A DNA stretch of 64,000 nt, from NCBI GenBank assembly GCA_916610825.1, contig OU744448.1, positions 23,477,032-23,541,031 of the forward strand. Direction: 5' to 3'. Every line of letters begins with the position of its first letter. Position 1 is the first letter of the stretch. This DNA comes from Haliclystus octoradiatus (Eukaryota; Cnidaria; Staurozoa; Stauromedusae; Haliclystidae). Positions 2,574-54,263 of the stretch are shown here, in pieces. Below the pieces are notes generated by a model, which searched no databases, had not been told where the DNA came from, and was given only the letters and a program-made list of their open reading frames with translations. The position numbers and the translations under genes were made by a program.

Positions 2574-3412
2574 CATAGCTGACGGTGGAAATAAATTAGA
2601 GAAGAGACATTACAATGATTACATAATACATTTGTTTGATTCTGCAGAGTCGGACCAAGGTCGGACTAAAGACATACGTTTTAATTAATTCCGCATTTCC
2701 AAATATCTGCCGATTTCTCAGAACTCTGTTTATTCAATATTACACCTCTAACTCATCTGATTCATCTGATTCTGTTGATCAGCGACCATCGTGACGTAAA
2801 CCTCTAAAATTGCACAATGTCAAACCTCTGTCAAATAGTCAAACTGCTACTGCACACGACAAGATGAACGTACGGCATCATGCTACTACTGAACTACATT
2901 CTAGATGATTCTAGACAAATACAATACTCGTTTTGTCATCCTTAAACCAATAACAACTCAGATTGATCAAATAGAAAGTTTAAAGTGAGAAATATTATTT
3001 GAACATTTCGAAACCCTTTGGTGATGCAAACTCTCCGGAACCCTGATCCCGGTTAGCAAAAGCAATGAATATTTCATCTGAAATTCAGGAAGAGAAAATA
3101 TTATGAATTTGAGAAATTTCATAATTTTGTTTCGTATCAAATTATCTGATTAGAAACCGATATAAACCGCTTCTTGTCGGTCCCCTTTCTTGTTTACAAA
3201 AACTTACTACTTTCACAATAGTCTGAAAGTCAGCTTCCGGTTCGAGGGGAATGACCATGGGAATGACATATGGATTGGGGAAAACCTCAGTTTGTTTTAC
3301 TTCCAGGTGGAAATATTTTTAAAGAGTTTATTTCAAAACACATCATTTCTCTGCTGATTGCTGTTTGAATCGGCAACATCTTGATTTGGTGTGCTGGTGC
3401 CTATAATTCATC
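2574..3412 (+). other. Presumed promoter and 5' UTR region of gene A
   Basis: No confident promoter element can be named. A good acceptor-like site (TTGTTTTACTTCCAG, ending at 3305) lies about 108 bases before the start codon. It could end a 5' UTR intron or accept a spliced leader. The same site is kept upstream of gene B. Confidence 0.35.
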
Positions 3413-3498
3413 ATGACGCATGGAATTACATTTCTATTAATGATACTGACTGCTGTTCAGTTTCTACCACGGATTCAAAGTCAGTTGTCACCATCGGG
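3413..3498 (+). CDS. Gene A exon 1: start and signal peptide
   Basis: ATG at 3413 opens a classic signal peptide: a short polar start, a hydrophobic core ([14 protein letters not shown]), then a cut likely after RIQS. The exon ends in phase 2 at a GTAAGA donor. The second copy at 56990-57075 is identical, supporting this start. Confidence 0.9.
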
Positions 3499-6400
3499 GT
3501 AAGAAAATTGAATGTACAGCAATTGCTGGAAAGTGTTTGAAACAGCAAAATGCATACGATCATACTCATATAGCCTATATAATAAAGACTATAGTTAAAC
3601 TTTTGCTTGTTTCTGAGATAGAAAAAAATATATAGCTGTTTTTTACTGCATATAGAATACATAGATAGACATATATCTGAATATACGCGACAATGATAAT
3701 TGTCAAGAAACCACACGTAAATAACATTTTTATAACGGTTTAGTATGAAATTTTGCAATTCGCACTGTACCATTAGGCCATAGATCTACATGCGGCGTAA
3801 ACTCCGTATAGTCTCTGCAAACAATATTTAATATTTTCTAAGTATTATTTGCTGAAGTATATGAGCTGTTTGATCAAGAATCCAGCTGAAGTAGTAGTCT
3901 GACATTTTAACACAAGGCTAGTAATTATCAAAACTGAAAAGGTCACCTTTTGAGCAAAATTGTGGCAAATCTTATGATGCGTCCATAGGCATATTCCAGC
4001 CGAGAAAAATAAGTTTTGCCTAGGAAATCATTTCAAAGTTGGAACTTTTTGGTCTTCTTTTTGACTCTCTAAATAATTTTGAATTTGAAAAACTTTGAAA
4101 AACAAAAAATTGAAGAACTTTTTTTAAAAGTGGTGGCACCCCTGTCTTTGATGAGCTGGTTCACCCATGCATCGCCTCCTCCACGGCACCCACGAGGTTT
4201 CTACGTCACTATAAGTTGACCGTGTATGCTAATTGTTCAATAATGATTATGAGTCAAATTATGAAAAATGATAACTTGAATGCTATAAAGTAAACGTTAA
4301 TATTTGAGCGAGTTGAACTCATATAGTTAATCATTACGCCGATGCGCAGCAGCACCAATAATCTAGGTTATCATGCACGACGACTGTTACAATCCAAACC
4401 GATGTAGCGAAAATATATAGGGACAGCCACGCAAACCCAATTTAAGCATAAAATATTACTCCAAGCTTCGAAATAAGAATAAGAATAAAATCACATTATA
4501 AACTGGATAAAAAGTGAATATGAGAATAATTTTTTTTTAAAATATATATACAAAGAACTTTCGCGGGAACAAGATATTATTGAAAGTCTACTCTGCAAAT
4601 TAAAACACATTTATTTATTTCTATTTCTATTGCAGGGCAAATGTATGCAGTAAAGATGTTTCTTTCAACGTTTATCAAGTGAAACAAAGTCAAAGGGTGG
4701 GTTATGATAACTACAGAACATGTTGTAAACGATTTCTTGGTGCTTGTACAAGCAGATGTACTCGAACAAGGTATGTCATTCATATAGTTACCATATTCAG
4801 AACTTCAAACACTTGCATACGCCGTTACTCAGTTACACCTTAGAAAGCCTCAAATAGCCAATAGGCAAAATGTTGACAATATTCTTTCAATTTTTCAGTG
4901 TAGCATATTTCTTGGATTTCCAACGTTTAAAGAAGTAAAACATATTTTCTGGAAACCATCACTCCCATGCAGTTATTTGCTTGCTTATTTATAATGATAC
5001 TGATTTAACTATACATATTGTAATGCTCTTCAAGCTCTTGTACGTTAATAGTCACTCATTACGTTTGACAATCTTGTAATTCCTCTTTCATCCCATATAT
5101 GCATAGTAAACCTACCTCCTGTAAGTGTTCCCCGCCTATATGTAGAACACTCTTCAGTTATTAACCAGGTGTGAGACCAGGATTTCCCCGGCAAGGCGGC
5201 TAGCTCCCCCGACAAGGGGGCTATTTATAAACAATATTCGCAAAAATGCTTGAAAATGTACCAATTATTTCCTCGATAATCAAAACGTTCTTCTCCGACG
5301 AGCGATATGGGTACACCTAACAGGAGGTTTTAGCCCGCTGCTTTCTAAGGTGCCCCTTGTTATTAACCTTGACTCGTAGACGTAGAGTAAGGTTAGTCCT
5401 GTCATGGAGGCTCTGTAATTATTGTTATACACACTTAACTGTGAATCATCCATGAATCTTCAGGACAGTGGCCAACCTCACATTATATCGAATGTATATT
5501 TACCAGCAACATATAAGTAACTTGTTCATGTTACAACATACAACTGTAACTAGGCATAGCTTTTTGTTCTATCTTCAAGATCAAAGATGGTCACTTATTA
5601 CAAGAAAATCATTCAAGTTCAGTATAAGAAAAGCTATTTCTGTTGCTCTGGTTGGGCACCTACAGGAAGTTCATGCTCAAAACGTAAGTTATTCATAGAT
5701 CATTAATAATTTACTTTTTTATCTTTTATATTTTACTATAAATTTTCTGCAAGTTAAGTAACATTTATTTTATTTTAATTTCTGCTTTGTTGAATAATGT
5801 TTTGTCCTACTTAAATTTATTACAGCAATCTGTCGCCCACCCTGCAAGAATGGTGACTGTGTAAAACCAAACCAATGCAAATGTCGATCTGGCTTTCAAG
5901 GGAAATATTGCGAAAGTGGTAAGTGGTCTACTACAATCTTGATATTCACTAGGCCTACAATATATGTTTGGTTTTTTCCCTCTTAACCAAACAATGGCAA
6001 TAATTGACAGTGCTATTTACCACATCATAATTCTATGTAAATATAAAATACTTGTAACTAAATTATAGAAATGTTTAACTAAAATGTAGGTAGACTAAAA
6101 ATATAAAAAGTACATATTTTATATTTACATATAATTATGATATTGTCATTAGCACGGTCAGTTGTTGTAACTACTTGGTGTATGTGAATTTGAAATTGTA
6201 AAATGGATTTAGATATTTTCGCAAATCCTTTTCTTTATTTTTGGAAAATCTAACAAATATTTGCCGCAAGAGAGCTGACAACCTCATTGACCAGTTAAGA
6301 CCATAGACAACGAGTACGAGACTATATGAACGGGCTATGAAGTGTCTTAATCACTGTTTTAGTAGGCCTAGACATCGGCATAGTACAAACAAATCAAAAT

Positions 6401-9400
6401 CCAAAACATTTGCTACTTGAACAAAAATGAACATGTGAAGAATTAATCAATGTCAACCAAATTTTGACAAGCATGCAATGGTATATCGAGAACATTGAAC
6501 GATTGAGCAACCAATCAGAATGCAGATCATCGAATAATAATTAATTTGGTTCTATATTAAATAAATGTATAGCTTTTACTCTTATTAAAATTATGATTTA
6601 TTTCAACTCAATAAATTATTTTAAAAATCATTTCAGATATTAATGAATGTACTGGTAAACCTTGCCAACAAGTATGTAAAAATTTACCAGGCACATATTC
6701 ATGTGGATGCAACACTGGATATAAAAAGACATCCGCAGTACCAACACATGCAGGATGCGCAGGTAAGAGCAACGATGATGGCAATACTTGAAACGTATAG
6801 AGTACTCTCTATATTTAACCAAACAATCCAGTAGATCACATGGGACAGATTATAGGGAACTCGGTTGTTGATACATAATCGTTGAGGTCTATATATTTAG
6901 TATTATCGTTGCTACATTTTTCAATTTATTAGTCAAAGTCAACATTTGAGCAGTATAAAATTTCCAACTTTCTTATTCATTATCACATTCAAAATATACT
7001 TTTGCTTTAGTAAACAGAATTTTAATAATTTCAATAGATGGAGGTGCTTGAAAAATATTGATTAAATCTAAAAAGGTGGTGGATTTTTCCCCCTAAAAAT
7101 TGGCTGGTTTTACGTATAGCATTTCACAACTGATACTACTCCAAGTTCAAATACTATAATCTAGGACTGTTTGTGTGTTGCTTTATTGAAGTGGTATGCA
7201 TCTATACTTTGGTCTTTCCCTCTAAAAAGTTTTGTTGACTGAAATGCATGAGTAATTGATTGTTGATGTAAAATTTGGAGTGACTTTGAAGCCTTTGCCC
7301 CCTGGCTTAGTCTATATAGGCACCATCTAGTATTAGTATTAGTGCTGCACGTCTATAAAGGTTATTCTGAAAATTTAACAATAGTTCAGCGTAAGAAAGT
7401 GTTTTACCCTACTGTTGGCAAGCTTCCTCATAAATACCGATATTCCCATTTAAAAATGCACAGAAAATTTTGAAAGATTTTGTCTGAAATTGAAATTAAA
7501 ATGGCCTGTCTGTTCTCAAAGTGGCACTGATCTATATGTTAGGGAACTTCTAAATAATAAGACGCCTGTTAATGTCTCCACTTCAATTCTTAGCTGTATG
7601 ATGGAAAATTAAAGTCTGTGCCATTTCATATTGTCTATTTTCAAAATACAGGACGTAAAGGGCAAAGCAAATACTGTATGGGACGTAAACCCACATGAAT
7701 GTAAATGAGCAGGGAAGAATATTTGCAAATGTAGTAAGGGTTAAGGAGATATATGCTCAGATTGATAATTTCAGATATTACAAGGTATTATTATACAAAT
7801 TTAATTTATATACTAATGTGGTAATTATGATATCTTGATACAATGAAACCTGTATATAACAGCCAGCTAGGAGAGGTAGATAAATTGATCACTATAAACA
7901 GTTGTGCTTTATATAAAGGTTTGATTCAATGGAAAATACTATTTTAGACATTGCAAGAGTGACCATTATACACAGGTGGTCGCTTGATATAGGTGACCGT
8001 TATAACAGGTTTGACTGTACTACCTATTTCCCAAAGCACATACTTATGTCGTAAAATAACTCCTGTTTATATTACGTTACACTTCGAGTAATACATATCA
8101 ATTCCATAGATATTTACATGTAATTGTTTCATTCTTTCCATTAGATGTCAATGAATGTAAACTAACTCCCTGCACATGCGCAACTCAAAGCTCTTCCTGT
8201 CGTGCCACATGCACAAATTCTGCTGGAAGCTTTTCCTGTACGTGTAACAATGGTTATTCCTTAGCCTCAGGAGATCGAATATGTAAAGGTAATTTTGCAA
8301 GTTTAATTTTGTTCTGTATTCTGCACATATACACTGCATAAACCAATACCGTAGCTATTGTAATTGCATTAATGCGTCAAAAACTAATACCTTAAAGTGA
8401 ATAATTGTGATGGTGTCACCCTACCAAAGGCACCCATACGCTAGTCTTCTATTTGTAGACGGGAGTGACTCTTTTCATTAAGTGCAATAATTGTAAATAC
8501 TCATTACCGATCCGAACCGCGACTCTGCAGATCATTTTCCACAGATTTCATGGCAGATAGGCATTGATTATCAATAAACAGCGGAACGCCGACGCTTTTC
8601 ACGATGCAATTTTTTCTGAGCCATTCTCTCCGCCATCAGAAGAGTATACTACTGTTTAATGCTCAAAAAAGGGTCATGCCTTTAAATAATAATAAAGTCT
8701 GGAGTTGGCCTTCACTCGTATGAACCAAAGTTGATCATATCTGAAGTCCGGTTGCTCTCTCTAAAGTGCTTTAGCTAAATCCTCCTAAAGGCTTTCGGGC
8801 AGGAATGCCTATAGGCGCACTCCTTTATCCATTTATGATTATATTTTTGATTGTAGTTTTGTTTCATATTTATTACACATGCATATCTTCCTTTTCAGAT
8901 GTTGATGAATGTGCAGTTCCTGCATTAAATGGATGTAAACAAAGATGCCTGAATAGCCTTGGTAGTTTTGCTTGTGCATGTAATTCTGGATATGTTATAG
9001 CTTCAAATAAAAAAGCTTGCAACGGTATGTGTTGCCTAATTTTGTTTCAATCCGTATTCGTATGTCTCATTGGATAAGAGCAAATATCAATTGTAAATAT
9101 TCATCATTGACTGTGTTGATCTATGTGTTGCTCGACTTATGATGTAGTTGTTCCAAATACGTGCCCATTTAATCGGAGATCTATTGCACTGCAGTATAAT
9201 AGCTGTTTACCACTGAAATTTAAAATATGCGACGGTTCATGTCAGAATCAACAATCGTGGCAAAATGCAACTGTTCAGTATGGCGGCAAAACGTACGAAA
9301 TTATTGAACGTTTAATGTGTGTTAATAAGGAAAATGAGATATATTCTCAGAATGGAACAAATTTTATTGAATATTTGAAAAGATAATAAAATTCTACATT

Positions 9401-12400
9401 AGATAATAAAACGAATTCCAATATTTTTTTGAAATTTCGATTCTGACAGGAACAGTCACATATATTGGTCGTATCAATGACTATATCCATTTCTGTTTGT
9501 AAACTCCTACAGAACACTGAATAACTCCATGCTTAAAAATGTAGTACATTCCAGCATAACTATAATGATTAACCCGAATATATAGTCTGTCTTATAAATC
9601 TTAAAATATATGTTGTTTAAACATCAGATATTAATGAATGTTCAACACTGAATGGTGGCTGTGGACAAAACTGTAACAATCGACCTGGTTCATTCTCTTG
9701 TTCATGTAAAAATGGTTTCAGATTGAATGGAAATAAAAGAACTTGTGACGGTATGTTGACATGAGAGAATACTCCCGGGGAGTTAAATCCAGAAAAATTT
9801 TTAGGGTATGCTTTGTCATGAAAAATTTTTTTGGTATCCTTTAGACGCCTTTGCAATTTTTATATTTTGCAAAACAAGTTTTACAGATGTTTTTTTCAAT
9901 TTCTTTTTTAGATTGTATTGTCATTTGTAAAAATATATTTGTGATATCTTTTTCATGATGTGAATTTTTTATGGTGATTCTTCCATAAACAATTCCATTT
10001 GAACAACCCCGTCGAAGCGCAATGGAAGTCACCCCCGGGAAACGTACTATATCAATATCATTGTAATTGATTCGAATGAGTTTTCTGGGCTTCCTCTCAT
10101 TATTTCATAAGTATCTGCGCATCAATAAGTAAACACAAATTTATCAAAGTGTCCATAGAATAAATGCTCTGATGCCGGTTCCACAGTATCTCTTTTATTT
10201 ACTTTGAATGTAAGAATGCTCAGTTTGTAAACTCTTCATCAGTTTTAATTATGGTATGAATACCCTTTTGACTGATCATAGTTTATATGGACTGATCAAC
10301 CAATATATATCGTATTACCAAGGGTATTACCAAGTCTCAACCTTATTTTCAAATTAACTGATCAGTCTCCGCGGGTGACCAAAATTCAGCACATGGTCCC
10401 GTTTTCGATGCCAAGCTGCCTTTGGTCTATCTATCTATGCTATATCTTTTTATATTTAGTTACATCAAGTTACATTTACTCTGTCCAGTGACACTCGGGA
10501 GTCGGGAGGTATTGGAAGCACTCGTGTCTCTTGCCATTTCCTGTAGTAAATATGTGGTAACCCTTTTCTAAAATATAACAAATTTCACAATCAAGCTTGT
10601 TTATATTGCGGAATGTCGCTCGAATCTTGAATTAATGATTTAAAATTCAATTTAAATTCAATGTTTTCACTTACTAAAATATTATCAAATTTAACTTTCA
10701 AAACGTTATAGTCTTTCTTGAAAAAAGATAGCTTTGTTGATATTATTTCTTTAGTAATACATTGCAGTTTCCTATTCTTCTTCATCTTTGAGAATCTGAA
10801 AAAATTTTATTGACAAATTTCGACAGGAATGTTCTAAAAAATATTTACCTTGTATTTCCAAACAGACGGACCAACCAATCAAATTGTAGGATTAAGCCCC
10901 GGCTAAATGAAGCCAACATTTTTTCCAGATTTTCACAACATCGATGTTGTGAAAAATGTTGACTTCATTTGGCCACCCCAGCCAGCATTTGGCCACCCCA
11001 ACCAGCATTTTCACAACATAGAGCCTAATTTTTATCAAATGCTGGCAAAATATTGGCTTCATTTGACCACCCCGGCCAGCATTTGGCCAGCATTTTCACA
11101 GCAACACGGTCGATGTTGTGAAAAGACTGGCAAAATGTTGGCTTCATTTGGCCACCTCAGCCAACAAATTTCAACAAATTTCGGAGTTTGATTTTGTTGG
11201 CTGGCACTATGAAGATGATCAAAAATATTGCCAACATTCTATTTTCCTTTTCGATGTTGCGAAAATGCTGGCTTCGTTTGGCCACCCCAGCCAACATTTT
11301 CACAACATTTGACATATCGAATTCCAAAGAATGAAAAAAACGTCTCTACTATTGGTCAATGATTACGTAGTGCTTTTAGTTAGTCACCTATTCACGTAAT
11401 AACAATAGTTTGGCGCGAAAGTCTCATAGAGTCATAGAGTCGAAATATATAAATAATAGAGTTTGACATTTTCTTTAACATTTTTCGCTCTTTATTCGAA
11501 ATTCTCAAGTGGTTTTAATATTTCTGCTAGGGAAGACACAGTTTTAAAATGACAAAAAAGATGCGATTCAACAGAGACTGATTAAGAAAATGTAGTGAGG
11601 TTTAATTTAAAATTGCCCACGAAGTAGAGCAAGGAGGGACAACTAAAAATAAATATATTATTGAGCTAGAATAATTTGAATAAATAAAAAATCTAAATCG
11701 AAGGACGCCGAAGATGATTTCCCCTTTCAGAAATTTCTTTCCGCCTCCGGATGTTGTGAAAATGCTGGCTTCATTCGGCCACCCCAGCCAGCCTTTTGCC
11801 AGCATTTAGCCAGCACCGGCGATTGATGATGTCAAAATGTTGGCTTCATTCGCCCTCCTAGCCAGCATTTTGTCAGCATTTTCATTACATTGATGCGAAA
11901 TTTTATTAAATGATGTGAAAATGTTGGTTTCATTTGGCCGGGGCTTTACATTCGATCACGCGTCACATTTTAGATTAAAGGTTAACAACGTACTTGCCGT
12001 GTTTGTATTTAAATGTGCTACACGAGGAATGCTGGAAGACACTAGTGAAGTGTCGAACGTTTTGAAGTTTAAATTTGATCCAAGGATATTTTAGTAAGTG
12101 AAAACATTGAACCAATCAAATTGCAGGACTACGTTCGATTACGAAGTCATATTTTAGAAAATTGATTAATGACTTCTATATAGCATTTTCCATGACTCCT
12201 GTTACGTGGGCTGTTAAAAATAAGTAACCTGGCAGGGCTGAATTTTATATAAATTTAATAATCCCAGCAATTATAACGTGTCGTTTAGTAATTTGTGTGT
12301 GCAATGTTTTCAGCTAAAAAAATAATTTTTATTTCATTTTTAATCATAGATATCAACGAATGTACTGAGCTCAAACCTTGTGATAACTCAGTTGGAATAT

Positions 12401-15400: not shown

Positions 15401-18400
15401 GATTAGAATCTACATTTGAAATTGTCTACATGAAATTTTATAGATAATAACATATATATATATATATTGCTTTTAGCCTTACCTTGCGTTGATATTAAAG
15501 CTGCTACTTTTGGTCAAATCAAATGCTCTGGGCTAGTGACAGATGAAATATGTGATTTTCAATGCAACCATGGCTACAATCTCTTTGGTTCTGCCAATCG
15601 GACATGTCTTGCATCAACATCATGGTCAGGGGAACAAACGCAATGCAAACGTGAGGACCAGGAAAACATATGTTATTTTTGTAAAGGCTGCATCTATAGT
15701 TAGTGTCCTTTATTCAAGCTTAATTTTCCATTTGAATAGCGCATTACATTCTGGTCATTTGAATAATTGGAATGAAGCTATAGAGCATGTTTTATCCTTG
15801 CGAACTACCAAGCTTTCCCGGCAAGCTTTAATACTTCATATGTCATATGAAGCTTAGCATCAATATAATTTTCATATCGTAGCTGCTGTATACATTCTCT
15901 TGCAGAATGCTGGTGCTCATTCGTATTCGTATACATCGATCAATGTTCCACCTATATCAGTAATCTCTCTCCGAGTTTTTCTTATTTCATATTTCGTATT
16001 GTCTTATTTTCCAAGGGAAAACTGAGGGATGAAATCTGCACATATTTTCACGTGAGATAAATACTGTTTATTTCCCTGGAGAACAATAGATTAGAGGGAG
16101 TTTAGTGACCCCAGTGTGAGACAAAATGACCCAATTGGAGACTTTTATTCATATAAAAACAAAGTTTCGATAGGTTCATGCAATAATTTTTAAGTTAAAT
16201 TTTTACAGCTTTTATATATAAGTTTATTTAATGCAATAAGGATAAATTTAAATACAAAGGATAATAATATCATAATAAAAATGAAAGTAGAATAAAATTG
16301 ACAAGAAGTATTTGATTTCAAACAAGGTTTCTTTAAACTATCGAAATTTTTTAACATTTAAGAGAATAACCTTTTTGAGCGATCCCTTACCAGAAGAAGT
16401 TCAGATTGGTTGTTAGAGTCATTAACTTGAATTTGAAAAACATTTTATTTTAAGTTGAATAGTTTGTTTGATTACAATCATTGAATAAATTTCTATTTTC
16501 TAATAGCAAAATCATGTCCAGACATCATCCCACCTGAACATGGTTCGGTTGTACTCCCTTGTATCGAAGAATTCGCATCAAATTGTTTGTTCAAATGCAA
16601 TAGCGGTTACTACTTATCTGGAAATCGTATTGTCAATTGTGTTATGCCAACATCTCAAACAATATGGACAGGAAGCAACGTTACATGCAAAGGTATGTAC
16701 AAATAGGATACTTTGTAAACAAGTATATAATAAAACTTAAACTGTAACGTAAATATTGAGATTTTAGCTGATCCAATCATAGGGTTTTATCATGATTGCG
16801 TGATCATTAGTAAGATGACTTCCCTTGTTATATTTTGAATCAGGAAGCAAGCACGTGGCAGTTCAATTGGTCCATGATCAATCAAATTATATTAAATTGA
16901 TTTTAGTATGACTTTTAATCTTTAATACTCCATTCTAATGGTTATTCTTGTGGATTTGGAAGCATAATGATTACAATGTAGAATTTTATAAAATTCGCAG
17001 ATTTTGTTACCGAATGTGATCAGCCAATATATCATTCTTAACATTCAACAAACACACGGGAAAGATACATCTCCACCAGTTCCAAGGGTGAAGGTTTGGA
17101 TTGATGATCAATTTCCTACAAATCTGTTCAAAATTTTCCTGATATAGAAATTTATTAAAAGCCAAAATGACATGGAATGCTCTTCATTCTTAATCTAATG
17201 TTTTTATATCAGCAATTCACTATACCCTCCGTGGAAATGTGCCAGCTACTTCATTAGACCAATTATTTAAAAATATTTAATAAATTTTCAATTTGGAATA
17301 TGTATTAAAAATTTCAAATCTATCTGTGCAATTTTAAAAAAGTTAAAATTTATGAAAATATTTATAGATGTGACGAGACTCGACAGGTCGAAATTACTTT
17401 TCTGAGCTGATCCTTGTTGCTTGTCCGAGGTGGCTCGTTATCCCTGCTCTTTTCTACTTATGAATATCTCATGCATGAAACTTGATCTATAATAATGGCA
17501 ATAATTTAATAGTTGCTTATGACATTAATTAAATACTTTGAACTTGGTAACACAGATACATGATCATCTGTAATTGTTTTATTGCGTACATGTCATAGTA
17601 TGCTTTTGTTTCATTATTGTTATTCACTGCATGGAATTTAAATGGATATCTTTTTCGTTTCAGCAAACACTGCTTGTAATCCTAATCCTTGCCTGCATGG
17701 TGGTTCTTGTCAAGAGAGTGCTTCTTCAACAAAAAACAATGCCAATGGATTCGCTTGTAACTGTGAAGCAACCCTTTACAAAGGGGAACGATGTCACATC
17801 GGTATTCTGGAGACACCAACATTGCCATTATTGGAAGTAGATACATTTTCAGTAGAGTTAATACTCAGAGCACGACCTGATAACTATGTTATGATTTCTT
17901 TTGCATCTGATGACAACACAATTACATTCGATCCTTTAACTGTAACAATTAGACATCCTGACAATGAGGCAGTATTTAAAGTTAAAACAAAAAAAGCTGG
18001 ATCATCAAATATTAAGTACATCTTGACTGGATTAGATGCTAGCTCCTTCGAAGCACCATCATCTGACGTTTTATATTCACGAGTTTTGCGCCCGAATACA
18101 AAACCTGTGATGATTGATACAGATTTTCTATCTTCTGCTTGTAAGACTCGCTACGCTGGTCGATGTGCTGGACCAAGCAGTGGACCTTTGGATTTCATAT
18201 CAACGTGCTCATGGAATCCTGACACAGCTGGATTCGTCGCAGTACGATCTAATTCACAGCGGTTGCCTTTGTCAGTGACTGGCCTGAGATCATCGACAGC
18301 TGATGCAATATACAACCGAGAAATTGTCGATCCAATCCGTGAAACGCTTGAGTATCTCAAAAGTAGCAGAGTTCCCTTGTGTCCTAAATCATCTTCTTGC

Positions 18401-21400
18401 AAAGGCCAACAAATGAATATGGATTCAATAGATTACATTACATCTGGTAACTTGTTTATGCGAACATACTTTGATCTATTTAATTCAAAAATGCCCAAAG
18501 GTGTCCAGCTCTCTTCGACTCTATCCTCAAATAGCTTTAATGCTGAAAATTTGAAGGCTGTTTATGGTATAGGCAGTCAATTGAATGATAGAAAACTTTG
18601 TCCTGCCATTAATTTCTATCCTGGCAATATGTATGGCCTTTACAGACCAAAAACTGACGCCAATTTAAATATTCTCTCGTCAAGTACACATATCGATAGT
18701 AACGACGCCTTCTGTGTCGCAATTGATGCATGTGGATACAGTGCTTCATTAGAGATGCCTGCAGAAAGAACATTAAGCATCAGCAATGATCTAATTGATT
18801 TAGGATTAACTGGTGTAGATTTAAATATCAAAGCATTTACTGTGCACCAATCAGGACCAAAACATTGCTTATCGATTGAACATCCACATACTTCTGAAAC
18901 CTGCCTTCATGCAAACGTCATTATGAAAGGATCATTAAGCATTAAAAAATCATCTGAAGTCATGTTCGAAGGGGATATTATGGCTGAAGGCAAAGATATT
19001 GATAAGGTTAGTACTGATGAAAGTAAATTTGTAAGTTCATTATAGGTTCAGAAATTGTTTAAGATTTTTGATTTACACCTAAAAGTTTCGAATTGTCACC
19101 TCCTTTTAAAAATTTGTTCAAAAACTGTCTAGTCAGAAAAGCTTCTGAAAAAATAGTTATGATAAGTACACGATGAGTACAATAATTTCATTTCATAGTG
19201 AAATTATCTTTTTATAAACTACAGTATACCTATAAATTTGAATGTCTTGGTGTACGTGTGTTTGTGGAGGTTTTCCGCGATTTTCTCAGCAATTTGAAAA
19301 CCGAATGAATCAAATAACATATCATCTGAATCTGATAGATAATTGCAGATAGTCGTACATAACGGGCTTTGTTTATTCTAATTTTCCCTTTGCTTTGTGC
19401 ATTGAAAGATAATTTCAGTTCAAGCACAGGTTTTGTTTTGCTTTTTGGAATCGCCGTGCTACGACATGCTTCGTTGCATCGCCTTTTTATTGTTGGAAAT
19501 CGAAATTCACATGTTTTCCAATTTCATTTAAGAAATTTTCCTCATTAGTTTCCCCATAATTATTTGTTTGTCTTCACAACCAAACAACATCAAAGTACTT
19601 CCTATTCAGTCAAAATTAGCCCAACATAACGTTGAAGTCAGCAAGGGATTCATTTTTATGATATATCTATTCGCACAGGTGACGTGTATAACCATAATGC
19701 TCTATTAGGCGTATTAGACATTAGATAATTCTGTTATTGTTTCGTGTTTTTGATAAAAAAATACTTCAATGATTATGAATACATAGAAAGAATCTAACTA
19801 AAGTCCTAGCTATTCATGCGGAGAAGGCGTATAACTTGAAGTTAAAAATTCATTTTTTAAGCTGTAATCAATTGATCATGTATAGTGCATACCCATACTA
19901 ACAACCATACATAGATTGTGTTTGTTTTAATTAATCATAAAATTTCAAATAGGCTCTTCTTCGGAAATTTGATGATGAAGTTCGAATATTATTGCGTGGG
20001 AAATTGTCAATTCGAATAAACATGGCAATGTTTGGTGGTGTCCTTACTTTTCAAGGAAGTGATAAAGTGGGTGAAAGTCTCATTCAATTTGGAGGTAAGA
20101 GAACAGTAATATTTCAATGCTTCATTTATGCTACAAAATTGGAACGCTTGAAAGTAGGTTATCTCTCAGCTCATGTGTTTTAAAGAGATCACAGTATCAA
20201 CGTGCCTTTACGTAAGTAGCCCAACTAAACTATACCAAGGAGCTGTATTTTACATACATATATACATTGATAAATCAGACGAAAAATGGATTGTTTGGTG
20301 ACATCACTAAAATTCTTGTCAAAAATATGTCTCTGTTAACCTCATCTACAACGTTTATCAAGCTCGGAAACAATAACAGTTTGCGAAATAGGAAAATGTT
20401 AAATTTTTCATTTCCTAGGAGCATTCATATTTCCAAGATATTATGATAGAACCAAGATAATCTAACTCAGATTTGGGTTTGAAAGAGTTTTAAACAGACC
20501 ATAATATTATCTTACCTTTGTGTAAATCAACCAAATAAATTGTATTTAACATCCTCAAGCATTGAATAATTCAAATTTAAAAATGACGTTTTTGTCCGAC
20601 ATCAATAACATCCTCAAAAGTCTATCTTTGTTGACCCAATATCGATCATTTCCAAACATTTTGATCTGTTTTGCCACGGCAAAATCACTGAGAATTGGCC
20701 TAAAAAGCTATTTTAAGATCATCTCGTTTCGATGCGAAAAAATTACCGGGGTTCAGATTATCAAACAAGCAAATTTACTTTCTTGTGAAAAGTAAAACAT
20801 TTATTAAACATTGCTGATATTCAATATGTTTGAAATGTCGCGCGTGGTAAAAAATCAAACAGAACCGGGTTTCATGATTTCATCTGAACCGCGCGAAAAA
20901 ATGTTTTACTTTTCACAAGAAAGTAAATTTGCTTGTTTGATAATCTGAACCCCGGTAATTTTTTCGCATCGAAACGAGATGATCTTAAAATAGCTTTTGA
21001 GGCCAATTCTCAGTGATTTTGCCGTGGCAAAACAGATCAAAATGTTTGGAAATGAGCGATATTGGGTCAACAAAGATAGACTTTTGAGGATGTTATTGAA
21101 GTCGGACAAAAACGTCGTATTTAAATTTGAATTATTCAATGCTTGAGGATGTTAAATACAATTTATTTGGTTGATTTACACAAAGGTAAGATAATATTAT
21201 GGTCTGTTTAATACTCTTTAAAACCCAAATCTGAGTTAGACTATCTTGGTTCTATTATAATATCTTGATATCTCCTATATGGGATTGCTGACGTTCAGAA
21301 ATACAGAATTAGAAAATAAAATTTTTCGATTTTTAGCGTCCCCCTGTAGTTGCAAAAGTGCCGCAATACAAAAGTTTTGTTTTTATCGATATAGCGAGAA

Positions 21401-24400
21401 TATAAGACTAATTATGCAAAAAGAACTAAGTGGATTGATGCAGCATTATCTCTCCGATAAGATCATAAACATTTGATATGTTGACTTTGCACCGTTTTTG
21501 TAAACACTTCGGGATTAGTCTTGCAGTGCCAAAAATATCGAACCTCAATTAAAATTGAGGCTAAACACATCGAATACAATCGCAGATGTTAGCCATACAC
21601 ATAATCAAGATATTATAATAGAACCAAGATAGTCTACTTCAGATTTGTGTTTGACAGAGTTTTAAACAGGCCATAATATTATCTCACCTTTGTGAAAATC
21701 AATAAAATCAAATGTATTTAACATCCTCAAGTATTGAATAATTCAAATTTAAAAACAATATCTTCGTCCGACATCAATAACATCCTCAAAAGTCTATCTT
21801 TGTTGACCCAATATCGATCATCTCCAAACATTTCAATCCCTTTTGACACGGAAGAATCACTGAGAATTATTGGCATCAAAAGCTATTTTAAGATCATTTC
21901 GTTTCGAATTTCCGGGATTCAGATTATCAAACAAACAAACTTAGTTTCTTGTGAAAAGCTAAACATTCATTAAACATTGTTGATATTCAATATGTTTTGA
22001 AATGTCGCGCGTGGCAAAAAAGATGTTATTGATGTCGGACGAAGATGTTGTTTTTAAATTTGAATTGCTCAATACTTGAGGATGTTAAATACATTTTTTT
22101 TGGTGATTTTCACAAAGGTAAGATAATATTATGGTCTGTTTTAAACTCTTCAAAACACAAATCTGAGTTAGACTATCTTGGTTCAATTATAATATCTTGA
22201 CAGAATGAAGCTTATTTCACAACATTCAAATATCGTCAATAGGTAGGTTTTAATAATTCTACATTTTGACAGTAACTAAAAGTTTGTTTACACTCTTAGG
22301 CTTACCATCAACATGTCCCTTCTGCCTAAACCGTGGTATTCACACCACAATGAAGGACAGTCGAGCTAAGTTCATATATTCAAGTTCAGCAGTGAGGTTC
22401 ATTCCCTCTTCTTCCCGAATGCAAATTTCTCTACCGTACGACATTACTGGTGGGTCAATTTCCAATGTGTCTAACAGTGCTTCACTGCTATTGCGTATAC
22501 GCTCTCTCGAAAATGTTGAAAAATTGATCATTGGATTGAAAGCAAATTTACCTTTGGCATATGCCGAAGATCATCGAATTTTGTCAGCATTCGCGAAATT
22601 GTTAGATGAGAAAATTTCTAAAGTCAAAACAGCATTATCAATACCTATCCCAATTTACACAGACATTTATGAAAAGCTTATCGAATTGAAATCATCAGCA
22701 TTGGATGTCCTTACAAGTGTTAAATACTTTTCATCAAGGCTTGGCTCGTATCCTCAAGCAAGGGCTATTAAAGGTAAACTGAATTTCCTACAAAAACGAT
22801 TGGAGCAAGTATCTCAATTTATCGTCCAGCCATCAACCTCAAAGCTTCAAGATAACTCTAATGGAGCTGTTCTTTCTTACTCCGGATCAGTGTGTTTTCA
22901 TCAGCTATGCATCAAAAATTCAGATGTCACTATCTATGATGTTGAAAAAGCGGTTGATAAATCTTGTGGGTCTTGTCAGAATCGTGATAGAGCAGATATC
23001 AAATCATCAAAATTAACGGTTTTGATTAAGCCGAAAGGAAAGCTAATGCTTAACGAAGAATTAACTGTGGATGAGACAACTCGCATAACTCTAACAATTG
23101 ATAAAACAACTCCTACCTTTAACTTGAATTTTGAATCAACTGTTCAATTTTTTGGCCAATCATACAAAGCCAATATCAATCTAAATGAACAATTTATCTC
23201 GTTGGAAGCAGCAGGCGTAAGACTTGGTAACTTACTATTTACAGCAAAGAATAAAATTAAAGTCTCTGAAGCTAACTGGAAAGATTTAGTGAGAAACATT
23301 GATGGTATTGAAAGTAGTAACTCTGAAGCAGTCAAGACACTCACTAAAAATGCTCAAGACTGGTTCAAAGCGACTGGTGGAAAAACTAGATCTCGTCTTG
23401 CCACTACAATGGCAAGGGTTCTGAAAAAATCAGATGACGTTGTGATAAAAAGTGATACCGTAGATGAGAAACGTCAACGTCTCTTACAGTCTACATCCTC
23501 ATTGCGTGCAGCAACAAATGATTATCGTCGCCAGTTAATGTCTCTTAATGTCTCGCAGACAACACTGCAGTCATATGTTACATCAGTTTCTGATACTTTT
23601 ATCAAAAAGTCTCTTGATATTGTATGCCTATTGAAAATATGTCCAAAAAGATGTGTTAGCATGCCCGAGTGTAAAGTATGTCAAGACCCAATTAAAGCTG
23701 ATGTTGATACTCTAAAATGTACACCTGTTGTTGAGAAAATCAGGACTAGTCAATTGGGAACGTATACTTCATCATGTGCATTGACAAAGTATGTTTTTAT
23801 TCCTGTCTACACTGGTTCATGCCCTGAAGACCCAGGAATGGCAGCACAAAGAGATGCTCAATTGCAACGGAATCTTGTTGCAACTGGATCAGCCGTTGGA
23901 GCAGCTGTTGGATCAATAATTCCTGTGTTAGGGACAGCACTTGGCTCTGTTATTGGCGCAATTGTAGGTTTTATTGGAAGTCTTTTTTCCTCATGCGATA
24001 AATCCTATGAAGTCTATACGAAAACATTTGTTGTGCAAGAACCATGCACGTTGACTAAAGTTGATATTGTTACCATTGAGAGGACTGTCTCTGAATGCTT
24101 CAATGTAAAGAAAAAAGTCCTAACGGGTTACTCTAGCCCAAAACGATGTAATTGTAAAACAAACCCTTGTGTTGCTAAAGTCACTGAGCCAGCATGTGTC
24201 ATTGAAAATACAGCATGTCAGAAGCAACGAGCTATATTCCTAAAAGGTTGGTCCAAGGTTCCTAAAGCATATAAGGAAACCTTTGACAAAGTTCAGCAAT
24301 TAAAAGACAACGTCAAAGCTTCCAGAGTAGCTATGGTCCAATGGGAGAGTCAAAAGAAGTTTGATAAAAAATCCCTCGAGTTAGCCATAATTGCACTGAA

Positions 24401-27330
24401 GACAAAAGCTCAAGAGTCCAAGTTAGCAAATGACACTTATACAAATCTTATTTCATACATCCCATTACAGCGATGTGTCTTGTCACATTTCAAAACATCC
24501 GAAGACATCAAAACACATCTGACAATTATGGAACTTGTATTCAAAACATCCCTGCCAGTTGCAGATGGAGTTTCAATGCAAGCTGAAGTGAAAAACAAAG
24601 TCACTGGAAATAGTGTATCGATTCCACTGAGAATGGATTTACAAGACATAGAGCTATCGTTGATTGGATTTGGAAAGGAAATAATTTCAAATGTATTATG
24701 TTCTTCATCTCGAAACCGCCGGTCTTTGGAGGGCAAAACTAATGCTGAAACGATATTTACCTCTTGGTATATCGATGAAGGTTTAAATACTACAGTTGTA
24801 CAACAAAGCTGTGTTACATTGAAGAAAGTAGAAAGCTTCTTGAAAGGTCTTGGCACGGAGTTAGATGAGTTAGCAACACAAGCTAACATGTTTGCGGATA
24901 TGATTGAGAAATCACAAAACTCTTTACCATTCAAAGCATCTTCATATAGTACTACAGAAAACAATGCTACAATACTAAATGCTGAATCTTCTTTGATGAA
25001 CTCAGTGATATCATCCATGTCAAACCTAGTAAATGAAAGCAAGCCATCAACTGTTATATCGGAATGGCTTCAGAACGCAGAAATATATACAGTTGCTAAT
25101 AATTATACATTCTGTCTTGATCTTCAAGATTGCATTGAGGTTGCATTTGATTCGTTGAGAAATTTACCTTCAATATTAAATGTAGACCGTGGTACGTATT
25201 TAACACATGTAAATGAAACCGAATCAAAAATTCTCAGCTTGTTTACACCAGAAAGCTTTACAACCTTCAATCAAATATCTTCAGATATTAACAGCTTCCA
25301 GTCATCGCTTAACACAACAATGCAACAAAGTCTTCATTGCTCTAAGCCACCAAAGGTTTCCATTGATAAAACCGAAAATATGACACTGGTAGCTGGTAAA
25401 GCATTGGATCTAGATTGTAAGGTTATTTCTGATTTGCCAAGCGTTGTTTACCGTTGGAAACTTCATGGAAAAGTAATTTTAGTATCAAATTCAAGCCAAC
25501 TGAATATAAAAACTACTGAACAATCTGATGGAGTGTACAGTTGTGAAGCAAGAACGGTTATTGGTTGGGGTGAATCTAATGGTACCAATGTTATTGTCTC
25601 TGCTCCTGCTAAAATTATTTCTTCACCGAAATCCATTCAGTTTGTTCTACCAACGGAGCCCGATATTGATCCTACATTTGTATGCAACGTTTCTGGAAAA
25701 CCAGAGCCAAGAATTTCATGGTATTTCATTCCGTATGATTATAAGAAAAAGGAAGCTACTTTATTGATGGGTCAAACATCCAAAGTATTAATCTTGAAGA
25801 ATGCGACCAACTCAGATGCTGGTATCTATTACTGTATTGCAAGAAACGAATATAAAAAAATTCGAAGCAGAAACGCTAAGCTCGATGTACTTGGTAGTGA
25901 AATAGCGACACAAAATCTTAAATTCTGTTTTAATGTAACTGCGAATGATTCACTCACTGAGGAACGCTTTAGTAACATTCCTGGTCATATTCGAATGGAT
26001 TCTGAGCAACAGATAGACTTAACTTATGTTCGTAGTGACAAGATCTCTGGTACAATTTGTTTCACTGTTCAAACCACGCCACAAATTCCTCGAAATGCAA
26101 CTCGCAGTACCTTGGTCAGCTTAGCTGCAAAAGCGAGGCAGAATGTTGCTAATTCCGTTGCTGTTGTAATCCGTGAGATTGTTTTGAATGGCTCCTCTTT
26201 GATGACAAATGATGGAAAATTCGTTCGTGTTGACAATGAATCATTCGCCTATGACTTTAACGGTGGAGAATGTCCTCGTGGTAAAACTCTGCAAAAGAAT
26301 GGATTCATTTGTGGTTAGTATTTCTTTTTGTTTATTTAACGAAATTAATAGTTTTTCTATATTGCCTGCTATTTGTTCATATTGAAATTGTTGATGCTGG
26401 AACCTAAATAATCACAATAATAAATTCAGCATGTTTTCTGAATTGCTCCTTGGAAACTGCATTGTATCATCAATACTGCACCTAATTTTAATTAATTCAT
26501 AACACAGTATCAAATTTAGGCATCTATTTGTTGGAAAATTTAAATTTAATGAAATTTTACAGGATCCAATTTCCATTGAACGTGTATGAGTATTGAGTAA
26601 GAAATCTAACATCCAAACCCTTTGTGTTTCAGTTGACTGCCCTGTTGGCACATATGAGATAAATGGTATTTGCACGCTATGTCCGTCCTCATCATTCCAA
26701 TCAACAACTGGTCAAACAAAATGCATAAGTTGTGGTGCAAATGAAGTTACAGAAAGAATCGGGTCATACAACTACATGCAATGCATACATTACAGTAAGT
26801 TACTTTTAATCAGCTTATTTTAAAGCTTTTCTTGTCACAAGAAGCTGTGAAAATGTTGCCGCAAAAGTATGCTCGCTGTGATAATTATACGTTACTTGTT
26901 TCCCATTAAACTGATCGGTATCTGTAGCATTTTTTCAAGCAGCGTAGAAAAATTGTTCGAATCCATGCTGATGTAAGTTCAATGGATCTGAAGGAGAAAT
27001 ATCAATGAATGCAGCCCTAAACCGGGGCCTCTACAAGATATTACCTTTCCCTGACCTCAAATCATATGACCATTGGAGATACTGTACAATAGTAAGAGTA
27101 CAAAGTTATCTCTAAATCTTTGTATGATATATTGTAAGGTATTCTGTTTCTGTTTAGATAAATATTGTTCTGGACGTCGTGATGGTCAATACAAAATATT
27201 AGGACATTGTGATAAATTATTTTCCTGCTCTGGCGGTTATACCTACGTAATGCGTTGTCCAGGTGGATTATTATATAACGAATTAACCAATCAATGCGAT
27301 TGGAGATGGAAAGTTTATTGTCCTAAATAG
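3413..27330 (+). CDS. Gene A: large secreted EMI-EGF-sushi-Ig-CBM14 mosaic protein (18 exons, 2510 aa)
   Basis: Spliced model: 3413-3498, 4636-4770, 5580-5683, 5826-5918, 6637-6762, 8145-8288, 8899-9024, 9628-9750, 12350-12478, 13019-13144, 13984-14106, 15477-15650, 16507-16692, 17664-19030, 19953-20094, 22300-26313, 26633-26794, 27158-27330. All borders are GT/AG, every phase matches, and the total is 7533 nt. Residues: signal peptide 1-23, EMI about 32-108, EGF 109-139, cbEGFs 140-438, sushi 439-558, EGF 562-596, unassigned region about 597-2077, Ig 2078-2162 and 2163-2260, unassigned 2261-2393, GCC2/GCC3 about 2394-2450, CBM14 2455-2510. No transmembrane anchor is needed; one hydrophobic hairpin sits at 1591-1626. 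By architecture it is an extracellular, calcium- and chitin-like-glycan-binding protein. Its physiological role is unknown, and I do not recognise an orthologue. Confidence 0.9.
3499..4635 (+). other. Gene A intron 1
   Basis: AT-rich intron, conserved in gene B (57076-58212). A minus-strand open frame at 3426-3773 covers exon 1 in antisense and is a chance frame. No other feature is seen. Confidence 0.7.
4636..4770 (+). CDS. Gene A exon 2: EMI domain, first part
   Basis: Phase 2 in, phase 2 out. It encodes NVCSKD, a Tyr-Asp-Asn-Tyr stretch, then [14 protein letters not shown]. Cysteine pairs around a CC-x-aromatic motif are typical of EMI domains, which mediate protein-protein assembly in matrix proteins. 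Confidence 0.85.
5580..5683 (+). CDS. Gene A exon 3: EMI domain, second part
   Basis: The acceptor is CTTCAAG at 5573-5579, phase 2 in. The exon encodes [19 protein letters not shown] then [10 protein letters not shown], the conserved EMI end (Tyr...CCxGW...C). An earlier AG at 5462-5463 gives an in-frame stop, so it was not used. Donor GTAAGT, phase 1. Confidence 0.85.
5826..5918 (+). CDS. Gene A exon 4: EGF-like domain
   Basis: Encodes [18 protein letters not shown] followed by [10 protein letters not shown]: six cysteines in EGF order, without the calcium-binding DxNEC start. An EGF right after EMI is a common arrangement (EGFL7 and MEGF families). Phase 1 to phase 1. Confidence 0.9.
5919..6636 (+). 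other. Gene A intron 4
   Basis: AT-rich, with no recognisable element. The matching gene B intron is 59496-60216, with small indels (for example AAATA units near 59681). Confidence 0.6.
6637..6762 (+). CDS. Gene A exon 5: calcium-binding EGF 1
   Basis: Starts DINEC, with [12 protein letters not shown] carrying the Asn of the beta-hydroxylation consensus CxNxxxxYxC. Phase 1-1, as for every cbEGF exon here, so modules can be shuffled without frame loss. Gene B has Thr for Ala late in the exon. Confidence 0.93.
6763..7839 (+). other. Gene A intron 5, left part
   Basis: No gene seen. The right part of this intron carries a MITE at 7840-8019. Confidence 0.6.
7840..8019. mobile_element. 180-bp MITE (AAACCTGTATATAACAGCC family)
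   Basis: The left end ACAATGAAACCTGTATATAACAGCC reappears inverted at the right end (CGTTATAACAGGTTTGACTGTA). It has no coding capacity. Related copies or halves lie at 42495, 44330, 45709, 46608 and, in the duplicate intron, 61424-61603. Confidence 0.8.
8145..8288 (+). CDS. Gene A exon 6: calcium-binding EGF 2
   Basis: Starts DVNEC, carries a two-cysteine insert ([12 protein letters not shown]) so eight cysteines in all, then [12 protein letters not shown] with the hydroxylation consensus. Phase 1-1. Identical in gene B (61729-61872). Confidence 0.93.
8289..8898 (+). other. Gene A intron 6
   Basis: Nothing recognisable. Gene B has several small indels in the matching intron. Confidence 0.6.
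8899..9024 (+). CDS. Gene A exon 7: calcium-binding EGF 3
   Basis: DVDEC start, [12 protein letters not shown] consensus. Phase 1-1. Its phase-1 donor can join either exon 8 (9628) or the alternative terminal exon at 9148. Gene B has Ser for Ala in the consensus. Confidence 0.93.
9148..9386 (+). CDS. Possible alternative last exon of gene A: cystine-knot-like tail
   Basis: An acceptor GATGTAG (9141-9147) in the correct phase for exon 7 opens a 79-residue frame. It encodes NTCPFNRRS, then [15 protein letters not shown], with the CxGxC motif typical of cystine-knot (CTCK/growth-factor) folds, and one later cysteine. The stop at 9384-9386 overlaps an AATAAA (9385-9390); a second AATAAA is at 9405-9410. 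The short product would be signal peptide, EMI, EGF, three cbEGFs and this tail, about 350 residues. The frame is kept in gene B. The polypyrimidine tract is weak, and the usual C-terminal CC/CxC of CTCK domains is missing, so it may be a relic. Confidence 0.5.
9385..9410 (+). terminator. Two AATAAA signals after the alternative exon
   Basis: AATAAA at 9385-9390 and 9405-9410 directly follow the stop of the alternative exon; both are kept at 62975-63000. Confidence 0.45.
9628..9750 (+). CDS. Gene A exon 8: calcium-binding EGF 4
   Basis: DINEC start and [12 protein letters not shown] consensus, phase 1-1. Gene B has the stronger DIDEC start (Asn to Asp). Confidence 0.93.
9751..10894 (+). other. 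Gene A intron 8, left part
   Basis: No gene seen. A minus-strand frame at 9841-10032 has no family features. The duplicated block reaches at least 10410 in this intron. Confidence 0.6.
10895..11946. mobile_element. 1.05-kb MITE with AAGCCCCGGC termini
   Basis: The left end (AAGCCCCGGCTAAATGAAGCC) is mirrored at the right (GGTTTCATTTGGCCGGGGCTT). Inside, a palindromic unit around GATGTTGTGAAAATGCTGGC and GCCAGCATTTTCACAACAT recurs several times on both sides of a unique core. A second copy is at 34827-35712. No transposase is encoded. Confidence 0.85.
11947..12349 (+). other. Gene A intron 8, right part
   Basis: Short AT-rich stretch before exon 9; nothing recognisable. Confidence 0.6.
12350..12478 (+). 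CDS. Gene A exon 9: calcium-binding EGF 5
   Basis: DINEC start, [12 protein letters not shown] consensus, [11 protein letters not shown] end. Phase 1-1. Confidence 0.93.
12479..13018 (+). other. Gene A intron 9
   Basis: Contains a 70-codon frame (12538-12750) with several cysteines but no acceptor of the right phase that I could see, so it is not called as an exon. Confidence 0.5.
13019..13144 (+). CDS. Gene A exon 10: calcium-binding EGF 6
   Basis: DNDEC start, [12 protein letters not shown] consensus, [11 protein letters not shown] end. Phase 1-1. Confidence 0.93.
13145..13541 (+). other. Gene A intron 10, left part
   Basis: Nothing recognisable before the hairpin at 13542. Confidence 0.5.
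13542..13622. repeat. 81-nt intronic hairpin
   Basis: GATGAGGCA near 13543 and its inverse TGCCTCATC near 13614 bound two arms of about 38 nt that pair with few mismatches, leaving a loop of only a few bases. It may be a tiny MITE or a microRNA-like precursor. Confidence 0.7.
13984..14106 (+). CDS. Gene A exon 11: calcium-binding EGF 7
   Basis: DIDEC start, [12 protein letters not shown] consensus, [11 protein letters not shown] end. Phase 1-1; last of seven cbEGFs. Confidence 0.93.
14320..15176. mobile_element. Foldback element in gene A intron 11
   Basis: Arms of about 270 bases (14320-14590 and 14897-15176) are inverted copies, for example AAGTGCACAT against ATGTGCACTT and ATACGATTTTT against AAAAATCGTAT. 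The roughly 300-base loop has no coding sequence. No target duplication could be fixed. Confidence 0.85.
15477..15650 (+). CDS. Gene A exon 12: sushi (CCP) domain 1
   Basis: Encodes [25 protein letters not shown], then [16 protein letters not shown]: four cysteines with the conserved Trp before the last, as in sushi domains of complement regulators and adhesion proteins. Phase 1-1. Confidence 0.92.
15651..16506 (+). other. Gene A intron 12
   Basis: AT-rich; a small imperfect hairpin around GCTTTAATACTTCATATG near 15830. No gene seen. Confidence 0.5.
16507..16692 (+). CDS. Gene A exon 13: sushi (CCP) domain 2
   Basis: Encodes [49 protein letters not shown]: four principal cysteines, the HGS and GY motifs and a late Trp, plus an extra cysteine pair near the start of the FKC segment. 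Phase 1-1. Confidence 0.92.
16693..17663 (+). other. Gene A intron 13
   Basis: AT-rich; nothing recognisable. Confidence 0.5.
17664..19030 (+). CDS. Gene A exon 14: EGF domain plus unassigned extracellular region
   Basis: Starts with an EGF ([12 protein letters not shown], then GFACNC and GERC). About 420 residues follow that I cannot place in a family: a beta-rich segment, then a cysteine-containing stretch ([25 protein letters not shown]) and Ser/Thr-rich text. The donor GTAAGT after KF at 19030 is phase 0, which fits exon 15. Reading past it gives 5 further residues before a stop, so an unspliced truncated form is possible but not expected. Confidence 0.88.
19031..19952 (+). other. Gene A intron 14
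   Basis: No recognisable element or gene. Confidence 0.5.
19953..20094 (+). CDS. Gene A exon 15: short linking exon
   Basis: Acceptor CAAATAG, phase 0; donor GTAAGA, phase 1. Encodes [20 protein letters not shown] and a Gly/Phe-rich continuation. It is the only asymmetric small exon of the gene and belongs to the unassigned region that exons 14 and 16 also encode. Confidence 0.85.
20434..21267. mobile_element. 834-bp foldback element (CAAGATATTAT family)
   Basis: Starts CAAGATATTATGATAGAACC and ends with its inverse. Arms of nearly 380 bases pair almost perfectly around a short centre near 20850. The mirrored 77-codon frames at 20562-20795 (+) and 20906-21139 (-) are the same arm read from both sides, not genes. 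Confidence 0.92.
21268..21605 (+). other. Intron 15 spacer between two foldback elements
   Basis: About 340 bases with no recognisable feature beyond a short inverted run near 21540-21555 (CCTCAATT/AATTGAGG). Confidence 0.5.
21606..22199. mobile_element. Second CAAGATATTAT foldback element, internally deleted
   Basis: Same termini as 20434-21267. The right arm lacks the sequence that pairs with the inner half of the left arm, giving 594 bp instead of 834. It lies 338 bases from the first element in the same intron. Confidence 0.9.
22300..26313 (+). CDS. Gene A exon 16: 4-kb exon with unassigned region, glycine zipper, furin site and two Ig domains
   Basis: Phase 1 in and out, 1338 residues. 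Residues 1062-1590: helical and beta segments with cysteine clusters (CPKRC, CKVC), no family recognised. Residues 1591-1626: glycine every fourth residue in two runs around SIIPVL, a hydrophobic hairpin, followed by Cys. A cysteine-rich part follows (CNCKTNPC). RNRR at 1866-1869 (24711-24722) is a furin-type site. Ig 1 (2078-2162) has LDC...YRW...DGVYSC. Ig 2 (2163-2260) has FVC...SWY...DAGIYYC. A 130-residue tail then leads to GECPRGKTL, the start of the GCC2/GCC3 module. Several NxS/T sites suggest glycosylation. Confidence 0.92.
23886..23993 (+). other. Glycine-zipper hairpin segment
   Basis: Residues 1591-1626 of gene A. Gly occurs at offsets 1, 5, 9 and 16, 20, 24, 28, with Ala, Val, Ile and Leu between and a single Pro at the turn, closed by SSC. 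Such GxxxGxxxG runs pack helices or insert into membranes. It lies inside a secreted protein between cysteine-rich stretches. Confidence 0.85.
24711..24722 (+). other. Furin-type cleavage motif
   Basis: Codes RNRR followed by SLEG, matching Arg-x-Arg-Arg. It would separate a 1,869-residue N-terminal part, including the glycine zipper, from a 641-residue Ig/GCC2/CBM14 part, unless disulfides hold them together. Confidence 0.6.
26633..26794 (+). CDS. Gene A exon 17: GCC2/GCC3 (ephrin-receptor-like) module
   Basis: Encodes [20 protein letters not shown], then [18 protein letters not shown]: the CPxGTY...CxxCP...GQxxCxxC pattern of GCC2/GCC3 repeats as in SCUBE and SVEP1. Phase 1-1. Confidence 0.92.
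27158..27330 (+). CDS. Gene A exon 18: chitin-binding type-2 domain and stop
   Basis: Encodes [47 protein letters not shown] then TAG. Six cysteines with aromatic residues in CBM14/peritrophin-A spacing. It is the last domain, ending four residues after the tryptophan-rich loop. Confidence 0.93.
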
Positions 27331-30189: not shown

Positions 30190-30270
30190 CTGTTAATATC
30201 ATTAAATAAAAGTAAAATTAATGTTAAAGGATCAATAATTACAACAAAAGGGAAAACAACCTCGATCGAA

Positions 30271-30914: not shown

Positions 30915-30932
30915 CCCAAACAAAATACCGCA

Positions 30933-54232: not shown

Positions 54233-54263
<31 letters not shown>

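Follow-up and report, generated by a model that had tools for sequence, protein, structure and literature searches.

The 64,000-nucleotide stretch analysed here (the window) contains a predicted gene of 18 exons whose product would be a mosaic of 2,510 residues, in which known extracellular domains flank a core of 1,473 residues (residues 604-2076, with 38 cysteines) without a library match. The sequence carries the open exon structure, the flanking domains, this core and one RNRR site within it. We consider, with a probability of about one half, that the product is a large extracellular adaptor or structural protein whose C-terminus would be anchored to chitin. The features of the window are collected in Table 1.

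Gene model and flanking domains

The gene model was built from stop-free stretches and splice sites, using the start, end and total length given in a preliminary description as guides. The rebuilt model extends from 3413 to 27330 on the forward strand and comprises 7,533 nt with a single terminal stop. All its introns, which measure 142 to 2,599 bases, are GT-AG and the exon phases are consistent. The exact closure over 7533 nt that had been described was thus reproduced by the rebuild, which confirms the gene at the level of prediction. The short phase 1-1 exons and the GT-AG introns make the window look eukaryotic. The window contains no N, and its scan returned neither a tRNA nor an Rfam match.

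Table 1. Features of the window (exons numbered as in the rebuilt gene model)
Feature	Position	Strand	Evidence
Exon 1, start codon and signal-like N-terminus	3413-3498	+	Gene model, hydropathy
Exons 2-3, EMI-like domain	4636-4770, 5580-5683	+	EMI E 5.5e-4, below gathering score
Exon 4, EGF-like domain	5826-5918	+	EGF_2, PEAR1-type and Delta/Jagged-type models, all sub-threshold
Exons 5-11, seven calcium-binding EGFs, one per phase 1-1 exon	6637-14106	+	Pfam and motif
Exons 5-11 individually	6637-6762, 8145-8288, 8899-9024, 9628-9750, 12350-12478, 13019-13144, 13984-14106	+	
Exons 12-13, two sushi domains	15477-15650, 16507-16692	+	Pfam
Exon 14, EGF and first 411 core residues (604-1014) in one exon	17664-19030	+	Pfam
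Exon 15, core exon of 142 nt linking exons 14 and 16, phase 0 to 1	19953-20094	+	Best of 65 candidates
Exon 16, C-terminal core (1062-2076) followed by two Ig domains, some 125 residues without assignment and the beginning of the GCC2/GCC3-type repeat	22300-26313	+	
Glycine-rich uncharged hydrophobic stretch in exon 16, 41 residues (1587-1627)	23874-23996	+	Composition
RNRR in exon 16 (1866-1869), convertase-like site	24711-24722	+	Only R-x-[KR]-R found
Exon 17, GCC2/GCC3-type (Ephrin_rec_like) repeat	26633-26794	+	Pfam E 3.4e-9
Exon 18, CBM14 chitin-binding domain and stop	27158-27330	+	Pfam E 6.4e-13
Candidate alternative last exon with an acceptor in phase 1, a stop codon and weak similarity to cystine knots	9148-9386	+	Weak
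Near-identical copy of 1411-10410, cut off by the window end; exons 1-8 recur at 56990-63340	55017-64000	+	Alignment

Splice sites were scored leave-one-out against the 1,571 GT and 1,495 AG of bases 1-30,000, with this gene's own sites as the only training set. Thirteen out of the 17 donors fell within the top 2.5% of these GTs, among them the exon 16 donor (GTTAGT), even though it departs from the pattern of the others. The weakest donors were those of exon 12 (27% of GTs as good) and exon 14 (9%). Among the 17 acceptors scored, two were poor, being equalled by 41% (exon 8) and 36% (exon 17) of AGs, and three were middling (exons 3, 4 and 15, 15-19%). Exon 15 is the sole bridge between the two long core exons and its omission breaks the frame. 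With a scoring trained on the remainder of the gene, exon 15 came first, at 18.8, among the 65 candidates that are open and of compatible phase in the interval from exon 14 to exon 16; the runner-up, which uses the same acceptor, reached 10.1. The 3′ end of exon 16 was set by the reading frame. The joins 13-14, 14-15-16 and 16-17 are splice-site predictions.

We set aside a protein ending inside exon 16, where non-use of the GTTAGT donor would lead to a stop at 26316-26318, because the cysteine pattern, as judged by eye, continues over the 16-17 join; the Pfam score of the joined repeat is no higher (36.6 vs 36.8 bits), though it is found in two stretches instead of one. The stretch may also hold two genes, split between exons 13 and 14, rather than the single message that the model implies. 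The stop-free frame of exon 14 does open with an ATG, but this lies just eight residues ahead of the EGF, and a signal peptide would not fit there. If the downstream part were a gene of its own, its first exon would therefore have to be a different one.

Pfam searches assigned most of the flanking domains. Seven stretches matched cEGF (1.3e-57) and EGF_CA (7.7e-49), and the calcium-binding motif D-x-[DN]-E-C was present in all seven domains. Two stretches matched Sushi (4.5e-6), the EGF of exon 14 was found at 8.4e-5, and the Ig region matched Ig_3 in two stretches (1.9e-18) as well as I-set (1.3e-13). The EMI model covered profile positions 2-68 of 69 when the N-terminus was scanned alone, reaching 21.1 bits against a cut-off of 25, and gave no Pfam match when exons 1-13 were scanned together. 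The domain is near full length and is therefore likely, while falling short of the gathering score. At the sequence level, the best 60 of 161 PDB matches to the N-terminal part were EGF- or sushi-bearing proteins by name, and the best 60 of 144 matches to the whole of exon 16 began no earlier than query residue 992, within the Ig region or beside it. The preliminary description had also named a GCC2/GCC3 repeat; PF07699, today Ephrin_rec_like, bore the name GCC2_GCC3 earlier, and the name therefore stands. Altogether, the rebuilt model and the Pfam matches support one long predicted mosaic in the order described before (EMI, calcium-binding EGF, sushi, Ig, GCC2/GCC3 and CBM14). Its flanking domains had been called standard; the calcium-binding EGF, sushi, EGF, Ig, Ephrin_rec_like and CBM14 domains are all above the Pfam cut-off, and the EMI domain is sub-threshold.

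A second copy of the 5′ part and a candidate last exon

The alignment of 1411-10410 with 55017-64000 is in direct orientation, with 98.37% identity over 9,021 aligned positions. In addition, 1-590 pairs with 50204-50783 and 585-982 with 54536-54933. Exons 1-8, the only ones of the second copy that fall inside the window, are all open and have identical splice-site letters; the position of its core lies beyond the window end. The copies of these exons differ at 4 out of 937 positions (three amino-acid changes), compared with 85 out of 8,026 positions outside exons, and a lower divergence of the exons is not supported, since the Fisher test gave p = 0.079. A tandem duplicate and a false haplotype duplication are both possible explanations of the second copy.

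The window also holds several repeats. An insertion of about 3.75 kb (50784-54535) is present in the second copy only, with GTTCTC repeated at both edges. It carries inverted arms (51396-52118 vs 53204-53908, 95.6%) and A/T-rich low-complexity tracts, and is perhaps a foldback-type element. Short direct and inverted repeats, 81-97% alike, occupy 20434-22200, which is most of intron 15, and 35800-36181, and a dispersed repeat (81-90% alike) is shared by 10894-11797 in intron 8 and 34829-35704. Upstream of the latter, inspection by eye suggests a LINE-like element (about 30148-34054), in which a zinc-knuckle-like ORF is followed by an ORF with endonuclease/reverse-transcriptase-like sequence, in several frames. 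The second of these ORFs contains NPGP, which we take to be a 2A-like motif.

It is conceivable, although we hold it to be doubtful, that the locus yields at least two products: a short one comprising the EMI-like domain, EGFs and a cystine-knot-like end at the candidate last exon, and a long or separate downstream one. An ORF at 9120-9383 offers a phase 1 entry at 9148 to which exon 7 could be spliced, and its frame is open in the second copy with one residue changed. Its similarity to Cys_knot (E 0.027) reaches 15.2 bits against a cut-off of 24, and PDB sequences gave no match at E 10. AATAAA occurs beside the stop, at 9385 and 9405, but its frequency here is about 1.2 per kb, and the acceptor at 9148 is equalled by a fifth of the AGs. 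ORFs of at least 70 codons were ranked after excluding overlaps with model exons, the LINE-like element, the exons of the second copy and its matching ORF, which kept 65 out of 120. Among these non-exon ORFs, the candidate came second by best-window codon score and third by cysteine content. This ranking favours cysteine-rich ORFs because the codon table derives from a cysteine-rich gene, and the translated part of the candidate alone scored 0.176 per codon, under the best windows of three other ORFs. The alternative last exon is thus a weak lead rather than a finding.

The core and its hydrophobic stretch

The core is carried mostly by two long exons amid short phase 1-1 exons. It appears to be coding, as its long exons are shared with recognisable domains and its third-position GC resembles that of the rest of the gene (0.287 before the core, 0.292 within it and 0.283 after it), while second-position GC is unlike (0.525, 0.405 and 0.423, respectively). 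An open frame of 1,353 codons is, by stop-frequency arithmetic, far beyond chance. Exon 14 joins the core to an EGF and exon 16 joins its 1,015 core residues to the Ig pair, in both cases without splicing. Neither the whole exons nor pieces of the core matched Pfam above cut-off. The exon 14 and exon 16 parts had no match above cut-off in NCBIfam, and the exon 15 part (47 residues) was searched in Pfam only. The exon 16 core gave no PDB sequence match at E 10, while the whole of exon 14 gave three (E 0.62-1), all of them EGF-type chains over its EGF domain. The earlier claim of a core in three exons that matches no family, described as about 1,480 residues and measuring about 1,470 here, is therefore borne out above cut-off in Pfam and, for the exon 14 and exon 16 parts, in NCBIfam and PDB sequences. 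No internal repeats were seen when 300 window pairs of the core were aligned (best score 50, vs 59 in the best of 300 shuffled pairs).

A bacterial or viral origin of the core was set aside, with no relative confirmed in the contigs examined: the exon 16 core gave five pattern matches in viral contigs and 22 in prokaryote genome contigs, and the exon 14 core, compared with viral contigs only, gave four, negatives that carry no information about animals. Among PHROGs, the exon 14 core retrieved no rows and the exon 16 core 14 (best 7.7e-6). Of these rows, 12 out of the 14 lie on the glycine-rich stretch or have their start in it or just ahead of it, one of them extending to query residue 673; we take the rows as composition. 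Similar stretches may exist in invertebrate proteins that carry no family name, and the core may be a widespread but unnamed animal module.

Structure prediction, which the preliminary description had proposed for the core, yielded no usable fold. Two AlphaFold2 runs without alignment, one on the exon 14 part and one on the exon 16 part, gave a mean pLDDT of 30.7 and 36.2, respectively. No residue of the exon 14 model exceeded 50. In the exon 16 model no residue exceeded 70, and 106 out of 1,014 lay between 50 and 70, most of them within two regions predicted to be helical (model residues 70-104 and 124-168).

The protein had further been described as secreted. In favour of this, residues 5-15 have the highest 11-residue hydropathy of the protein (2.7), and this N-terminal stretch peaks at 1.52 on the 19-residue scale. 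Similarly, the 22 N-glycosylation sequons, which start at residue 363 and become denser towards the C-terminus, together with the core cysteines, are compatible with an extracellular protein. In contrast, the stretch at residues 1587-1627 could sit in a membrane. It is devoid of D, E, K, R, N, Q and H, whereas the next longest such run has 16 residues and none of 2,000 whole-protein shuffles reached its length (longest shuffled run, 34), and it is the only region with a 19-residue hydropathy of at least 1.6. Fully soluble secretion is not assured, because of this stretch and the RNRR site. A single pass at 1587-1627 would place the sequons and the Ig/CBM14 end across the membrane from the EGFs, which would make a hairpin or a buried segment likelier.

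Proposed role and comparison with known systems

In the adaptor or structural reading, the N-terminal signal would direct the protein into the secretory pathway, and the EMI-like head and seven calcium-stiffened EGFs would make a rod. The sushi and Ig domains would serve as protein-binding surfaces and the C-terminal CBM14 would fix the protein to the chitin of a cuticle, a tunic, mucus or the lining of the gut. The core with its cysteines would be the distinctive working or structural part, and cleavage at RNRR would probably divide it into two chains that remain associated. Against this reading, EMI is sub-threshold, the hydrophobic stretch would be unusual in a fully soluble protein, the joins 13-14, 14-15-16 and 16-17 are predictions from splice sites, and the acceptors of exons 8 and 17 score poorly. 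The possible early last exon would imply a shorter product as well.

The main rival, which we hold to be doubtful, is the role of a chitin-anchored immune recognition protein resembling the protochordate VCBPs, in which microbes would be bound by the Ig (and sushi) domains and CBM14 would keep the protein on mucus rich in chitin. According to excerpts of the sources, a VCBP is a pair of V-type Ig domains with a chitin-binding domain (PMC2632668, PMC4757023), and here a C-terminal CBM14 likewise comes after two Ig domains, with other modules in between. The first Ig also exceeds the cut-off of V-set_CD47 (24.3 vs 21 bits), but the Ig domains fit Ig_3 and I-set far better, and the general V-set model (0.0096) stays below its cut-off. 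The near-identical extra copy and the nearby inverted repeats recall the amphioxus VCBP locus, for which an excerpt of the source describes inverted repeats and real copy-number variation as well as artefactual duplicates (PMC2632668); the few differences between the exon copies are, however, too few to show diversifying change. The EMI-like, EGF, sushi and core parts are, moreover, foreign to VCBPs.

We regard as improbable, and more so than immune recognition, a membrane-active core, in which residues 1587-1627 would fold into a helical hairpin able to insert into or span a membrane, and would be released or armed by cleavage at RNRR. The exceptional hydropathy and length of the uncharged run, a proline close to its centre, the weak matches to glycine-zipper models and the single R-x-[KR]-R site agree with such a role. 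However, Gly-zipper_Omp (E 3e-4, 21.1 bits) remains below its cut-off of 25, 12 of the 14 PHROG rows cluster at the same composition-biased stretch, the predicted structure has no element there, and a buried hydrophobic hairpin would look identical. Extending that idea, it is very unlikely that the core represents a novel class of animal domain, namely an extracellular module with disulphides and a glycine-zipper hairpin that would be armed by convertase cleavage at RNRR, delivered by CBM14 to chitin surfaces and inserted into membranes.

Large extracellular mosaics of standard domains are numerous in animal genomes. If relatives confirm it, the core would be an undescribed extracellular module, and finding it joined to Ig and chitin-binding ends would inform ideas on the construction or defence of barriers rich in chitin; it would be ordinary if relatives show a common, unnamed animal region. 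The combination and order of domains were not found in the literature searched, which is weak evidence, and none of the literature naming three or more of five of the Pfam domains was about such a protein by title.

The protein shares with VCBPs an Ig pair upstream of a C-terminal chitin-binding domain and, as we infer, secretion. It differs in that the Ig pair is preceded by approximately 2,000 residues, made up of the EMI-like, EGF and sushi domains and the core. The Ig domains, V-type in VCBPs, may or may not be so here: Ig_3 and I-set match best, and V-set_CD47 passes its cut-off on the first. An Ig pair and a chitin-binding domain only would define a VCBP, whereas the present 2,510 residues include many other domains; by composition it is therefore at most VCBP-like in operation. 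The likeness to SVEP1/polydom, which contains Ephrin_rec_like repeats, is that of a large extracellular matrix mosaic with sushi and EGF domains, although we know of no such core in SVEP1/polydom. Its VWA and pentraxin domains are absent here, with no Pfam match at E 1 in six pieces covering the model. Sushi and EGF also appear in the expansion of its name, as given in an excerpt of the source (PMC9932102). The seven tandem calcium-binding EGFs resemble those of fibrillin and LTBP, and fibrillin and LTBP1 are among the PDB matches, while the TB (8-cysteine) domain of these proteins had no Pfam match at E 1. Similarly, the sub-threshold EMI-like head followed by calcium-binding EGFs recalls EMI-EGF matrix proteins. 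Compared with both groups, the core, the Ig domains and CBM14 are additional in the protein predicted here.
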